The notes beneath the pieces were generated by a model. That model was not told the DNA's origin, did not search any database, and saw only the letters and a list, made by a program, of their open reading frames with translations. Positions 39,364 through 46,789 of a stretch of 64,000 bases of DNA are shown here, piece after piece. Made by a program: the position numbers and the translations under genes. This DNA comes from Halorussus halophilus (GTDB taxonomy: Archaea; Halobacteriota; Halobacteria; Halobacteriales; Haladaptataceae): assembly GCF_008831545.1 (NCBI RefSeq), contig NZ_CP044523.1:1612001-1676000 (forward strand), written 5' to 3'. The first letter of the stretch is position 1. Each line of letters begins with the position of its first letter.

Positions 39364-40062
39364 ATGGCATTACAGCGGGCGAAATTTCGCGGGGAGGACT
39401 CCCCCGACCGGTTCCGAGAGGTCCTACACCGTCTCAAGCGAGACGGCTGTAACCTCCTCGTGACGGGTGAAGTATCCCAGAGCGTGACCGCACGGGCCAC
39501 TCGGACGCTTCTCGGCGCGGCCAACGTGGACCGGAAGCGGGTCCTCACGCTCGCGGACGGCGACCAATCCGTCCACGACCGACTCCCAAAGGGTGTCGCT
39601 CCGGACGCGTCGAGCGTGTGGGTCATCGGCCAGCAGGCAGACCACCGAGCGGTCCCGTCTCCCGTCGATGAACCGGCAGACGGCGACGAACCGACGCCCG
39701 ACGAATATCGAACTCATCTCGCGGGCCTCCGCGAAGAAATCCTCTCGGCTATCGAGTACTTCGAGAAGGATGGACTCGACCCCGCCGAACTTCGACTGTC
39801 TGTCGATTCGCTCGACTACTTGGGACACGACCACGACGAGGCGAGTCTCGCGGAGTTCGTTCGGAGCGTTTCCGAGGAAGTGCGCGACGTGCGCGGGATG
39901 GCCCACTACCACCTCCGCCACCCGGACGACTCGGAGTTAGTCGAACGGCTGACGCCGGTAGTCGAGGCGCGCATCGAACTCCGGAAGCGCGAGGGCCTGC
40001 CGGCAGAGCAACGATGGCACGTCCCGGAGTACGGACAGGCGACCGAGTGGGTACAGCTATGA
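39364..40062 (+). CDS. Conserved haloarchaeal protein (DUF7504-like) next to CHAT gene
   Basis: A 232-residue protein. The opening FREVLHRLKRDGCNLLVTG followed by VTARATRTLLGAANVDRKRV is a haloarchaeal family I believe is DUF7504. The C-terminal half is helical (REEILSAIEYFEKDGLDPAE, YLGHDHDEASLAEFVRSV). It resembles a degenerate P-loop or RecA-like fold without an intact Walker motif, which is only an impression. It ends 7 bases before the first CHAT gene, so the two are co-transcribed. Confidence 0.7.
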   Translation: MALQRAKFRGEDSPDRFREVLHRLKRDGCNLLVTGEVSQSVTARATRTLLGAANVDRKRVLTLADGDQSVHDRLPKGVAPDASSVWVIGQQADHRAVPSPVDEPADGDEPTPDEYRTHLAGLREEILSAIEYFEKDGLDPAELRLSVDSLDYLGHDHDEASLAEFVRSVSEEVRDVRGMAHYHLRHPDDSELVERLTPVVEARIELRKREGLPAEQRWHVPEYGQATEWVQL

Positions 40063-40069
40063 ACTGACC

Positions 40070-42187
40070 ATGGAACCTGAGTTCGCGCCACACCCCGACC
40101 GAACCGGCCTACAGATAGCCGACCCCATCGAGAACGCCCGCTTCGCGCTGTTCACGCCCGACGCCGTCGAACCGTCACAGACGGCGACCGAGGAGTTCTA
40201 CTTCCCAGTCGATTCCGCGGTGAGCGTTCGGACCCCGGAGATAGAGATTCCGAAGTTGGCGAACGTCTTCGTCCGCACGCGGGACGGCGACCTCGTGGCC
40301 GACAACGCCGACCACTTCGACCGGTCGTTCGAGTCGGGGTCGTACGTGTTGGAACTGACCACTGCACCGATGAAGTTGTACCTCGCCGTAGAGAGCGGGT
40401 TCGACCTCCGACACGCTGAGACTGCGGTCACTATCGCCTTCGACGCCGAGACCGAGGTTCGAATCGGCGCGCGGTCGTTCCACGACAAGCCAGCGGCGAC
40501 TATCACCACGACACCGGACCCGGAAGGAGCGATGAAAGCCATCTCCTATCTCGGGTCCGCGCTGAAGACGACGAGTCCCGAACGGAGTTTCCCGACACTT
40601 CGCGGCCATCCACCGCTGATAGAAGTCGGTGAGGAGTTTTCGGTCCCCGACGGATTAGAACGCCCCGAGACGGGCGTCCGAATCGAGGTTCCGGCGGCGT
40701 ACGAGTACGTCTATCCGGCGAGTTCGCTTGCGTACTATCTCGGTGCGGAGGTGGTTCCGGGAGAAGAACCACGACTACTCGCCGGTGATGACTTCACGTA
40801 CCTGCTCGACGGACCGCTCGGATACGAGCAGACGATTGGCCGCGTCCTCAAGCAGACGTTCTTCTTCGACTGTCTCACGCGGACCGAGGGCTACTACGAA
40901 GTCGAGTTGCACGAGCGACACGCGGTCGAATCGCTCGTTGACCTCGACTTCGCGGCACTCTACGACGTTCCGCTCGCCGAGCGACTCGAAGCGTACCTCT
41001 CGGTCCCGTTCGAGACCATCGAAGAACACGTTCCGGACTGGAACCTGACGACGGACGTGGTCCCGACCGCAGAGAACGCCGAAGTGCTTCCGTTCGTCGC
41101 GTCGGACCTCGCGCTCGTTCGGTGTCCGTCCGGCCTGACCGCGGGCGAAGTGTCGCCGACGCCGGAACCCATAGACGAGTTCTTCCGGTCCGCCGAGGAC
41201 GAGTCCTCCCGGTCGCCAGACGACGAGGAGTTCACCCGGAGCGTCGCCGAAGGGAGCGAGACCGCCACGCCATCGGAAGACGTCTTCAACCCGAACCCCG
41301 CCGAGACGGTCGAACACGCGTGGGTCGGCGACGGCATCCCGATAGGTGCGAACAAGACGAGCGTCGAGTCCTATCGGCGACGCGTCGAGCGCACGGTGCC
41401 GGAGAAGTCGAACATCGAGATTCACGTCGTCTGCAACGACGAGCGCATGAAAGCCGAAGGTATCGTCGAGGAGTTCTACGGCATGCGGGAACTGCTCAAG
41501 TTCGACGTGTGCATCCACTACGACCTGACGACGGCAGCACTCGCGGATTTGCTGGCAACGGAAGCGGACTTCCTGCACTACATTGGCCACGCAGAAGCGG
41601 CCGGACTCCGCTGTCCGGACGGCCACCTCGACGTGCGAACTGTCGAGGACGTGAACGTCAAGGCGTTCCTGCTGAACGCCTGTAGCTCCTACGAGCAGGG
41701 CCAGGCGTTAGTCGAAGCCGGGAGTTACGGCGGCGTCGTGACGCTCTCGGAAGTCGCCAACAGCGTTGCGACCGAGACTGGCCAGACGCTCGGACGACTG
41801 TTGAACTGTGGGTTCTCGCTCAGGTCCGCCTTGTCGATTGTGAAAGACGACGTTGCGGCGGCGTATCAGTACGTGGCGGTGGGCGACGGCGGATTGACAC
41901 TGTGTCAGAGTGAGAGTGGAACTCCTCTATACGCGGAACTGACGAGGTTGAGTGCAGAACGTTTCAGAATGACGCTCAAATCGTATCCTACCCGGAAGTT
42001 TCGGCTAGGGGCGACAAATTCTGTAAACGTCTCGGATTCTGCTAGTTGCTATCTTAGCTCTGGTGTTCTCGACACATTCAAATTAACCCGAGAGGACCTC
42101 AAATCGTTCTTGGGTCTCGAACTGATACCGGTCGAGACCGAGGAGGGTCTCTACTGGAGTGACCAGTTACCTGTATCAGCGATCTGA
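40070..42187 (+). CDS. CHAT-domain (caspase-like) protein, copy 1
   Basis: A 705-residue protein. The N-terminal two thirds hold beta-rich sequence (YFPVDSAVSV, TAPMKLYLAVESG, KTTSPERSFPTLRGHPP) with no domain I can name, then a disordered acidic stretch at about 365-430. The C-terminal region is a CHAT caspase-like domain: FLHYIGHAEA with His503 and His507, and FLLNACSSYEQGQALVEAG with Cys538. The His/Cys pair expected for a cysteine protease is intact. It is in an operon with the DUF7504-like gene, and a 44-codon gene converges on its end with a 1-base gap. The paralogue is at 44393. Its substrate is unknown; a cell-death, defence or stress role is a hypothesis. Confidence 0.8.
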   Translation: MEPEFAPHPDRTGLQIADPIENARFALFTPDAVEPSQTATEEFYFPVDSAVSVRTPEIEIPKLANVFVRTRDGDLVADNADHFDRSFESGSYVLELTTAPMKLYLAVESGFDLRHAETAVTIAFDAETEVRIGARSFHDKPAATITTTPDPEGAMKAISYLGSALKTTSPERSFPTLRGHPPLIEVGEEFSVPDGLERPETGVRIEVPAAYEYVYPASSLAYYLGAEVVPGEEPRLLAGDDFTYLLDGPLGYEQTIGRVLKQTFFFDCLTRTEGYYEVELHERHAVESLVDLDFAALYDVPLAERLEAYLSVPFETIEEHVPDWNLTTDVVPTAENAEVLPFVASDLALVRCPSGLTAGEVSPTPEPIDEFFRSAEDESSRSPDDEEFTRSVAEGSETATPSEDVFNPNPAETVEHAWVGDGIPIGANKTSVESYRRRVERTVPEKSNIEIHVVCNDERMKAEGIVEEFYGMRELLKFDVCIHYDLTTAALADLLATEADFLHYIGHAEAAGLRCPDGHLDVRTVEDVNVKAFLLNACSSYEQGQALVEAGSYGGVVTLSEVANSVATETGQTLGRLLNCGFSLRSALSIVKDDVAAAYQYVAVGDGGLTLCQSESGTPLYAELTRLSAERFRMTLKSYPTRKFRLGATNSVNVSDSASCYLSSGVLDTFKLTREDLKSFLGLELIPVETEEGLYWSDQLPVSAI

Positions 42188-42188
42188 T

Positions 42189-42323
42189 TTATGGGCCAGC
42201 ATGTGCCGATGCCCCGTTCGCCGCCACGTTCCCTGCTTCCATCAACAGCAAGCAGGCCGAGAACAGGACGCCCATCGCTTTCGGATTCTCACGCAGGTAC
42301 TCCGCAATCATGTTCTGGTTCAT
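42189..42323 (-). CDS. 44-residue hydrophobic micropeptide downstream of CHAT copy 1 (DUF7503-like)
   Basis: Read directly on the minus strand: ATG at 42323, TAA ending at 42189, with one base between its stop and the CHAT stop. The peptide has a polar start containing YLRENPKAMGVLF, a hydrophobic core (LFSACLLLMEAGNVA) and a short His-containing end HAGP. A TATA-like segment (attaaatt on the minus strand, about 42353-42360) lies about 30 bases upstream, indicating a leaderless transcript. It is clearly paralogous to the peptide at 46473, which has the same length and motif, so it is a real gene. Confidence 0.8.
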   Translation of the reverse strand: MNQNMIAEYLRENPKAMGVLFSACLLLMEAGNVAANGASAHAGP

Positions 42324-42482
42324 GGTAACGATAGACAGTACACGGTCGTGACAATTTAATCTATCTAATTCGTTTCAATATAAACATTATTAATGTAGCG
42401 GCGTGAAAGCAATTCAAGTATTGCGAGAATAACATCTTTTTGCAGACAAGGATTTTTGTCCAGGGAGTGTGAGCGACCCGAT

Positions 42483-44342: not shown

Positions 44343-44396
44343 ATGCGAGTTGCTCGACGAACAAACTCTGATAGCTGTTCGGGGGGTCTCCCGTGA
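44343..44396 (+). CDS. Possible 17-codon upstream ORF coupled to CHAT copy 2
   Basis: ATG at 44343 opens a frame (MRVARRTNSDSCSGGLP) whose TGA overlaps the GTG start of CHAT copy 2 (GTGA), the same arrangement seen before ilvB. A TATA-rich segment just upstream (44308-44330) would put the ATG near the 5' end. Translation is unproven. Confidence 0.3.
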   Translation: MRVARRTNSDSCSGGLP

Positions 44397-46462
44397 CGCT
44401 GTCGTTCCGTTCGACGGCCGAACCGACAGGTATCGAAATTCGCGATCACGTCGAGCAGCGGGTGTACGAACTCTCGACAGCGAGCGACGTCTCGCCGAGT
44501 TCCGTCTCCACCGAGCGGTTCCTGTTTCCCGTAGACGACGCCGTCTCGATTCGGACGGACGCGATTTCGCTCCCCCAAATCGTGGCGACGTATCTTCGCG
44601 ACAGTGACGGCACCATGCGCGCGGAAATCCTGGATGGGACCCAAGAAGTGTTCCCCAACGGCAAGTACTACGTCGAACTGTGCGCCCCGATGAAACTCTA
44701 TCTCGCCGTCGAAGGTCCCATCTCGGTGTCGGCGACTGCTGAGCGATTCCGATTCGAGTTCGATTCCGAAGCCGAAGTGCTAATCGGCGCACGCTCTCAC
44801 CACGAGCGACCGGCCGCAACCGTCACGACCACGAGGGACCCGACGGACGTGATGACTGCTATCTCGGCGTTCTCGTCGGCACTGAAGACGACGAGTCCCG
44901 AGCGCAGTTTCCCGACGCTCCGGGGGCATCCGCCGCAGATAGAACTCGGCGAGGAACTCCACGTTCCCGACGAGTTGGAGATACCCGAGACGGACGTTCG
45001 AATCGAAGTTCCGCCGACGCTGAGTGCACTCTACGTCGTCGCTCCGCTCGCGTTCTACCTCGGGGCCGAACTCGCACCGGGACAGAGACCGCGAATCGTC
45101 ACCGACAGCGGGTTCACGTACGACCTCGAAGGCCCACTCGGGTACGAGCAGACGGTAGAACGCGTCCTCAAACAGACGTTCTTCTTCGACTGTCTCGTCC
45201 GGACGGAGGGTCTCTACGAGGTCGACCTCCACGAACGGCGAGCGGTCGAACCGCTCGTGGACTTGGACTTCGAAGCGTTGTACGACTCGACCATCGGCGA
45301 GCAGTTGGAGGGGTACCTCTCCGTCGAGTTCGAAACTATCGAGGAGTACCTTCCGAAGTGGAAGTTGACGACGCACGTCGAACCGACGAGCGACAACGTC
45401 GAGTCGCTTCCGTTCGTGGTCAACGACCTCGCAGTCGTTCGGACGCCGAAAGCACACGAGCAATCCCCACAGGTGCAGGCACAACCTGCAACGACTGGCG
45501 AGTTCGTTCGGGACGGGGACTTCACCCGTAGTGCAGCGGAGTCGAGCGGCGAGATGCCACTCGTTCACCCTGAACGTACCGACTCGGTCGAACAGGCGTG
45601 GCTCGGTGACCACGCGCCCAAGGACGCGAGCAAGGTGACCGCCAAGGCGTTCCGAAATCGCATTTCGAGAGACGTTTCCGAGGGCACGACAGAAATCACG
45701 GTCGTCTGTAACGATACCGAGATGGGCGAAGAGAGCGACCTCGCCACCGAAGTGTACGGTTCTCGGGCGGAACTCCCGTTCGAGGTAACGGTCCATCGTA
45801 ATCTTTCGACCGACGAGCTTCGAGAAGTCTTGCAATCGGAGACTGCGTTCCTGCACTACATCGGTCACATCGGCGAAGACGGTTTCGAATGTGCCGACGG
45901 CACGCTCGACGCGACGACGGTGGAGTCGGTCGGAGTCGAGGCGTTCCTGCTCAACGCGTGTAGCTCCTACGAACAAGGGCTTGCTCTCGTCGATGCAGGG
46001 AGTGTCGGTGGCGTCGTGACGCTGTCAGACGTCATCAACAGCGGCGCGGTTCGGGTTGGCAAGACGATGATTCGCTTGTTGAACCGTGGATTTCCGCTCC
46101 GTGCCGCATTGACGATTGCACGGGGCCGAAGCATCGTCGGTGACCAGTACATAGTAGTGGGCGACGGGAACGTAGACGTAGTGCAGACGGAGAGCGGTCT
46201 CGCCGCACTATACGAAATCGAGCGCGACGGAGAGGAGTTCTTAGTAACTCATCGAAGCTATACGCCGAGTACTGCGGGATTAGGTGGCTTCTTCTCACCA
46301 GAATTCGTGGAAAACAGGACGTGCTACCTGAACTCGGGAGTTCACGGTCCGTTTTCGCTCACGCGCGACGAATTGAGTATGATGCTCTTACTAGAGAATC
46401 TGCCGCTCGTAATCGATGGTCAGTTCACTTGGAGCGAGTCGCTTGACTTAGGTTCGCTGTAG
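44393..46462 (+). CDS. CHAT-domain (caspase-like) protein, copy 2
   Basis: A 689-residue paralogue of the protein at 40070, alignable from the first residues (TGIEIRDHVEQRVYEL against TGLQIADPIENARFAL). The CHAT motifs are conserved: FLHYIGHIGEDG (His488, His492) and FLLNACSSYEQGLALVDAG (Cys523), with the same spacing as in copy 1. Between about 345 and 400 the acidic linker differs in sequence and length. It starts at a GTG behind an AT-rich promoter (gataaatttttatttttact) and has no DUF7504-like gene directly upstream. A paralogous micropeptide gene converges on its end. Likely a cysteine protease, by family. Confidence 0.8.
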   Translation: MTLSFRSTAEPTGIEIRDHVEQRVYELSTASDVSPSSVSTERFLFPVDDAVSIRTDAISLPQIVATYLRDSDGTMRAEILDGTQEVFPNGKYYVELCAPMKLYLAVEGPISVSATAERFRFEFDSEAEVLIGARSHHERPAATVTTTRDPTDVMTAISAFSSALKTTSPERSFPTLRGHPPQIELGEELHVPDELEIPETDVRIEVPPTLSALYVVAPLAFYLGAELAPGQRPRIVTDSGFTYDLEGPLGYEQTVERVLKQTFFFDCLVRTEGLYEVDLHERRAVEPLVDLDFEALYDSTIGEQLEGYLSVEFETIEEYLPKWKLTTHVEPTSDNVESLPFVVNDLAVVRTPKAHEQSPQVQAQPATTGEFVRDGDFTRSAAESSGEMPLVHPERTDSVEQAWLGDHAPKDASKVTAKAFRNRISRDVSEGTTEITVVCNDTEMGEESDLATEVYGSRAELPFEVTVHRNLSTDELREVLQSETAFLHYIGHIGEDGFECADGTLDATTVESVGVEAFLLNACSSYEQGLALVDAGSVGGVVTLSDVINSGAVRVGKTMIRLLNRGFPLRAALTIARGRSIVGDQYIVVGDGNVDVVQTESGLAALYEIERDGEEFLVTHRSYTPSTAGLGGFFSPEFVENRTCYLNSGVHGPFSLTRDELSMMLLLENLPLVIDGQFTWSESLDLGSL

Positions 46463-46472
46463 CGCTAGACTT

Positions 46473-46607
46473 TCACGGTCCGTGAGTGACCAGAGCGTGA
46501 GCCGCAGTCGTGTTCCCTGCTTGTGTCAGTAGCAACAGCATCGTAAATAGCACGCCCATCATTCGCGGGTTCTCTCGGAGATACGTCGTGAGGTTGCCTT
46601 CTTGCAT
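46473..46607 (-). CDS. 44-residue hydrophobic micropeptide downstream of CHAT copy 2 (DUF7503-like)
   Basis: Read directly on the minus strand: ATG at 46607, TGA ending at 46473, 10 bases from the CHAT copy 2 stop. The peptide shares YLRENP, MGVLF, LLL and AGN with the peptide at 42189 and ends THGP. It has one hydrophobic stretch (MMGVLFTMLLLLTQAG) able to span or insert in a membrane. A TATA box (tttatatttg on the minus strand, 46632-46641) lies 25-34 bases before the ATG. I believe the family is DUF7503. Confidence 0.82.
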   Translation of the reverse strand: MQEGNLTTYLRENPRMMGVLFTMLLLLTQAGNTTAAHALVTHGP

Positions 46608-46789
46608 GACAACTGTTGCTTATGCCCACACAAATATAAAGTTTTTTACAATATTTTAGACATAATACTGTCAGAAACGGACTTACGGTCTGGTACGATC
46701 TCCTATATTATAATTCATTACGTAGTGGGATAGCTGTTTGACAGTCGAAGGGGCGATGACGTTAAAGCCAGACGGACCCAAGAACAGTC

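Follow-up and report, generated by a model that had tools for sequence, protein, structure and literature searches.

Two small genes of Halorussus halophilus, each of 44 codons, encode members of the Pfam family PF24335 (DUF7503), and each stands tail to tail with a gene for a large protein that is predicted to be a clan CD cysteine peptidase. Both pairs lie in the 64,000-nucleotide stretch analysed here, which is called the window. We propose that they represent a two-gene haloarchaeal module, in which the DUF7503 protein would be the small half and the convergently encoded CHAT/separase-like protease the large one. A functional partnership of the small protein and the protease is very likely. 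An earlier note on this DNA had described the two small genes as real genes missed by length cut-offs, and the convergent protease gene and a Gly-Pro end of the small protein are the main points that go beyond it.

Both small genes are on the minus strand, at 42189..42323 (tail NGASAHAGP) and 46473..46607 (tail HALVTHGP), and their 44-residue products share 22 of 44 positions (50% over the full length, E 7e-15 as a single comparison), in agreement with the paralogy first claimed for them. They match PF24335 with 64.3 and 69 bits, where the Pfam cut-off is 27. TATA-like elements, recognized by eye, are found at 42353..42359 (minus strand, about -30 to -36) and 46632..46639 (minus strand, about -25 to -32); these are AT-rich and lie some 30-36 and 25-32 nucleotides 5' of the two ATGs. 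In 141 upstream regions of relatives, with the start misassigned in part, TATA-like words are most frequent between -33 and -29 relative to the start. Such a spacing is what archaeal genes with a short leader or none should show, and the support that this lends to the suggested leaderless promoter layout is one of position. The first copy (42189-42323) does lie antisense to nothing, as had been remarked. The hydrophobic segment is likewise present in both peptides; its insertion into a membrane is plausible, and the same leader also carries a signal-peptide-like small-residue site.

The comparison of synonymous and non-synonymous change that the earlier note had proposed gives a pN/pS of 0.245 overall, 0.214 for the leader and 0.307 for the tail (40 independent pairs), and DUF7503 small proteins are thus under purifying selection. 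At E <= 0.01, 251 of 293 Halobacteriales genomes contain the family (249 with matches above the cut-off), as does a single one of 14 control genomes, that of Haloferax volcanii. The protease is present in 25 records of a plasmid collection, nearly always as 'hypothetical protein', and the small gene in 13, of which eight have it unannotated and five as a 'hypothetical protein', according to a gene table that describes itself as incomplete. Family membership, purifying selection, the spread across Halobacteriales and the mostly unannotated plasmid copies together bear out the view that these are genuine genes escaping annotation. A chance or non-coding reading frame is ruled out by the pN/pS and by this spread. 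An exact DNA pattern for DUF7503, which would miss diverged copies, met 0 stretches in IMG/VR.

The large genes of the window are on the plus strand. Protease gene 1 (40070..42187, 705 aa) ends 1 nt from small gene 1, and protease gene 2 (44393..46462, 689 aa with an assumed GTG start) ends 10 nt from small gene 2, both pairs being convergent. The two large proteins are ~50% identical to each other, and since the large and the small genes are both paralogous, the two-gene unit has been duplicated as a whole. The genome contains seven DUF7503 matches, all seven tail to tail with a large gene, and 13 copies of the large protease gene; these seven matches and the duplicated gene pair rule out a mere two-copy paralogy. 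An eighth, diverged small reading frame ending in Gly-Pro faces the protease copy at locus L021, and at L024 a Gly-Pro-ending small reading frame lies upstream of the protease on the same strand. A convincing Gly-Pro partner was not seen at the protease loci L019, L020 (two copies) and L022 of this genome; the two copies at L020 stand in tandem (L020:5826-10084, plus strand). Within the eight pairs of this genome, divergence of the small proteins is correlated with that of the large ones (Mantel r 0.63, p 0.0013), which fits duplication as a unit, although linked duplication alone also yields such a correlation. Eight different small-protein tails are found in this one genome.

The pairing extends well beyond this species. 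All of the 30 best DUF7503 loci are convergent with a protease gene, and among 80 named loci, which were collected by protease similarity, a DUF7503 gene is convergent within 500 nt of the protease in 72. Seven of the remaining eight have a convergent reading frame that ends in Gly-Pro, which in one of these seven is an N-masked DUF7503 gene. In a census of 12 whole genomes, 40 of 48 above-cut-off DUF7503 genes converge with a protease gene at a distance of no more than 500 nt, for which the probability by chance is <0.001 per gene. Seen from the other side, 48 of the 77 protease copies in these genomes have a convergent DUF7503 gene, sub-threshold ones included, and 29 do not; the Halorussus halophilus copies at L019, L020 (two) and L022 belong to these 29. 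Irrespective of family, a convergent Gly-Pro-ending reading frame accompanies 76 of 92 protease reading frames and one of 332 other large acidic reading frames at the same loci; the raw control count was 6 of 337, from which five of the six were removed as proteases missed by the filter. Exceptions to the tail-to-tail arrangement include a head-to-head pair (L120), the upstream same-strand partner at L024, and a DUF7503 reading frame that is farther away on the same strand (L182).

Eight above-cut-off DUF7503 genes in the 12 genomes are orphans, of which genome G180 has five, G108 two and G186 one. The five in G180 (L105-L109) are near-identical and lie on dispersed cassettes of ~170-370 bp, promoter region included, with no protease gene nearby. 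Protease copies broken by stop codons were also observed (G108:C3:13255-15246 and G186:C1:914733-916532), a sign of turnover among paralogues.

Gaps between the convergent genes are very small or negative in many loci, and one could accordingly regard the mini-gene as an antisense RNA or as a terminator of the protease gene, with no protein function. This explanation is barely credible given the pN/pS of 0.245, the free choice of codons at the Gly-Pro end, the retention of Gly-Pro in same-strand and orphan copies, and the repeated tail units of Haloplanus partners, which differ synonymously only. In the final Gly-Pro, each of the four Gly codons and each of the four Pro codons occurs. A role of this end as a DNA or terminator motif is ruled out by this codon freedom, by the same-strand and orphan copies, and by the repeats.

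The large protein is predicted to be a clan CD cysteine peptidase of the CHAT/separase/gingipain type, and of a cytosolic kind. Searches of Pfam (to E 0.1) and of NCBIfam (to E 1) gave no family for its sequence, and the protease profile, run against the sequences of the PDB, returned nothing useful; two plasmid homologues are annotated as 'CHAT domain-containing' or 'caspase family'. An AlphaFold2 model of protease 2, built from 60 sequences, has a mean pLDDT of 84.4 and a pTM of 0.86. The best Foldseek matches of this model are separase and a SAVED-CHAT protease, and a second structure aligner gives gingipain R (Z 21.1), SAVED-CHAT (Z 18.4), separase (Z 18.2) and Craspase TPR-CHAT (Z 14.0). 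These matches to clan CD peptidases cover mostly residues 322-598, for which separase and gingipain R are the nearest solved folds. The N-terminal residues 1-350 differ in having no clear counterpart: modelled alone, this part reaches a pLDDT of 93.8, and a fold search with it returned only a weak similarity to GH31 enzymes, in a beta-sandwich.

The predicted catalytic residues His492 and Cys523 are invariant in all 60 sequences, and the dyad is present in 13 of 13 copies of the Halorussus halophilus genome. Residue 441 is Asp in 57 of 60 sequences, and its spacing to the His and Cys resembles that of the S1-pocket Asp of gingipain R. From this likeness a preference for Arg or Lys would follow; gingipain R and separase prefer Arg.

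Pfam describes neither a function nor a protease link, a Gly-Pro end or tail-repeat relatives for PF24335 or PF24336 (DUF7504), a family that also occurs in the window. The DUF7504 gene (39364..40062, plus strand, 232 aa) adjoins protease gene 1 directly upstream, and its product shows a weak likeness to KaiC (E about 0.1). Of the 80 named loci, 36 have a DUF7504 gene in the neighbourhood of the protease, in 35 cases on the same strand, and the DUF7504 protein may be a third component of the module.

The anatomy of the small protein was examined in 148 distinct DUF7503 members aligned to the profile. Ahead of the hydrophobic leader segment, the motif [HN]P[RK]M is conserved, with Pro in 148 of 148 members followed by Arg or Lys in 147. 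The leader ends (HMM column 35) in Ala (139) or Gly (9), i.e., in a small residue in all 148, and the tail between it and the Gly-Pro is poorly conserved. The C-terminal Gly-Pro itself is present in 130 of the 148 and absent in 18; lineages that do not have it show short ends such as -TIS, -TVG and -GT. The functional unit may be the C-terminal tail of 6-10 residues ending in Gly-Pro, which the protease would read or release, and the hydrophobic leader behind [HN]P[RK]M may anchor this tail in the membrane or route it through. That the DUF7503 protein serves the protease next to it as a dedicated substrate or precursor, with a functional Gly-Pro tail, has in our judgement an even chance of being correct, from what the sequences suggest.

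This layout resembles that of a signal peptide, and the would-be -1 position holds a small residue in every one of the 148 members. The small protein might therefore be a secreted signal, in which a true signal peptide is removed behind the conserved Ala and a Gly-Pro peptide of 7-10 residues is exported, to be sensed by the protease directly or after re-uptake. The weak conservation between leader and Gly-Pro, the eight distinct tails in the Halorussus halophilus genome and the existence of precursors with tail repeats all suit such a signal. However, the hydrophobic part is itself conserved beyond the plain need of a signal peptide, with Gln in 136 and Gly in 139 of the 148 members either within the hydrophobic stretch or where it ends, and the partners in Haloplanus and in a second protease clade have no export segment. 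We consider secretion of this kind fairly unlikely.

The distance from the Pro to the C-terminus is near constant (30 residues in 63 of 91). Together with the hydrophobic helix, and with a protease fold that is common to defence CHAT proteins, this would also accord with a membrane effector or toxin, i.e., a hydrophobic peptide that is freed by the protease and damages the membrane in a gasdermin-like manner, as part of a suicide or defence module. Unlike a patchy defence gene, this one is near-universal and mostly present as a single copy; some partners do not have a hydrophobic segment; the 2023 library of PADLOC yields 0 families for four proteins up to E 1; and no relatives of the protease were found in IMG/VR. 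A membrane effector is therefore quite unlikely.

Other partner types indicate what is common to the pairing. The convergent partners of Haloplanus have no hydrophobic segment and repeat the tail unit 2 (L148), 7 (L272) or 13 (L171) times, L272 being placed with this type by sequence. In the 13-unit gene (L171:6567-7133, minus strand) and the 7-unit gene (L272:1303-1788, minus strand), the units are near-identical, of 11-13 residues, and end in Gly-Pro; the 13 units of L171 have synonymous-only changes across 12 shared residues. The first unit of L272, AAGNGSGISGP, resembles ordinary DUF7503 tails such as AAGNHGAISGP. The Halococcus partner (L168 and L178) is a peptide that looks soluble and ends in ACTYSGP.

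A second protease clade has convergent soluble partners that end in KR[VI]STYGGP or close to it. Five of these were found from the protease position alone (L239, L241, L242, L243 and L251). Twelve loci (L253-L263 and L266), with the ends KRVSTYGGP, ERVSTYGGP or KGISTYGGP, were found by a search with one partner, and their uniformity is partly built in because they were selected by similarity; their invariant residues show synonymous codon change. At L252 and L244, a leader is combined with a longer tail. Overall, only the place beside the protease and the Gly-Pro end, with few exceptions, are common to all partner types. The repeated units of Haloplanus and the KR[VI]STYGGP ends of the second clade speak for the tail as the unit that matters.

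Distant relatives of the protease (L235-L238, E about 1e-63 to 1e-66) were observed in family f25, which belongs to the same phylum but not to Halobacteriales. A convincing Gly-Pro partner was not seen in the distant clades L235-L238 and L247-L250, and L235-L238 perhaps represent the state preceding the origin of the pairing.

If the small protein is a substrate, the protease would cut behind the conserved basic residue that precedes the helix, and in the second type behind the KR that precedes STYGGP. Cleavage behind a basic residue cannot be the rule for all partners, because the Halococcus partner (with an assumed start) and the interior of the Haloplanus units have no Lys or Arg. The freed C-terminal peptide might then act at the membrane or as a signal, by analogy with the cutting of Csx30 by Csx29, and several diverged copies per genome, with their different tails, could provide parallel channels. 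The opposite relation would be that of an inhibitor or pseudosubstrate, with the small protein silencing the protease as securin does separase. The frequent pairing and the nearest folds, separase and gingipain, agree with this, and the C-terminal Pro might serve as a product-like block; the separate convergent transcription and the tandem tail repeats lend no special support to inhibition, which we regard as decidedly improbable. Extended to its limit, the substrate or precursor reading would become an order-wide archaeal peptide signalling, in which Gly-Pro-ending peptides, made from DUF7503 proteins and from the repeat-bearing and soluble partners, are matured and perceived by the paired separase-like protease, with several private channels in each genome and with multi-copy precursors, as known for yeast alpha-factor. 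This wider scheme is unlikely.

The nearest working models of the module are Csx29-Csx30 and HetF with PatS or PatX. PatX has a hydrophobic leader and its gene lies near hetF, and the C-terminal motif of PatX and PatS is RG[ST]GR. HetF of Anabaena is a putative protease with a CHAT domain that is required for heterocyst formation (PMC8406250), and the heterocyst pathway uses the short peptide ERGSGR from PatS, HetN or PatX (PMC9410556). In contrast, the RG[ST]GR motif is absent from the small proteins described here, which mostly end in Gly-Pro, there is no HetR, and the system is archaeal. Csx29, a CHAT protease, cuts Csx30, a dedicated substrate from a linked gene (PMC10028731). Craspase has the same protease fold as the haloarchaeal large protein, but here there is no CRISPR effector, and the partner is a peptide of 40-50 aa and not a protein of 565 residues. 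A further likeness is to arbitrium AimP and Phr-type pheromones, in which the last few residues of the precursor are the active part. These precursors, of about 43 aa, are similar in size and in their C-terminal active part to the reading of DUF7503 given above; unlike these systems, the haloarchaeal one has no TPR receptor, its partner has a protease fold, and some partners have no export segment.

A full-text collection that holds few subscription papers yielded no paper on DUF7503, DUF7504 or this module. What is already known is the Pfam family and the protease fold; the pairing and the logic of the tail were not found described. Two overlooked 44-codon reading frames have thus turned out to be the visible half of a conserved module in most sampled Halobacteriales genomes. 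Because Haloferax volcanii holds DUF7503, this module is testable in an established model, and the Gly-Pro tail is a clear candidate for the functional unit, to be targeted by mutagenesis and proteomics. If the protease acts on the peptide, the module would be an archaeal counterpart to bacterial pairs of CHAT protease and substrate, and a peptide that is set free would be a candidate for peptide signalling in archaea.
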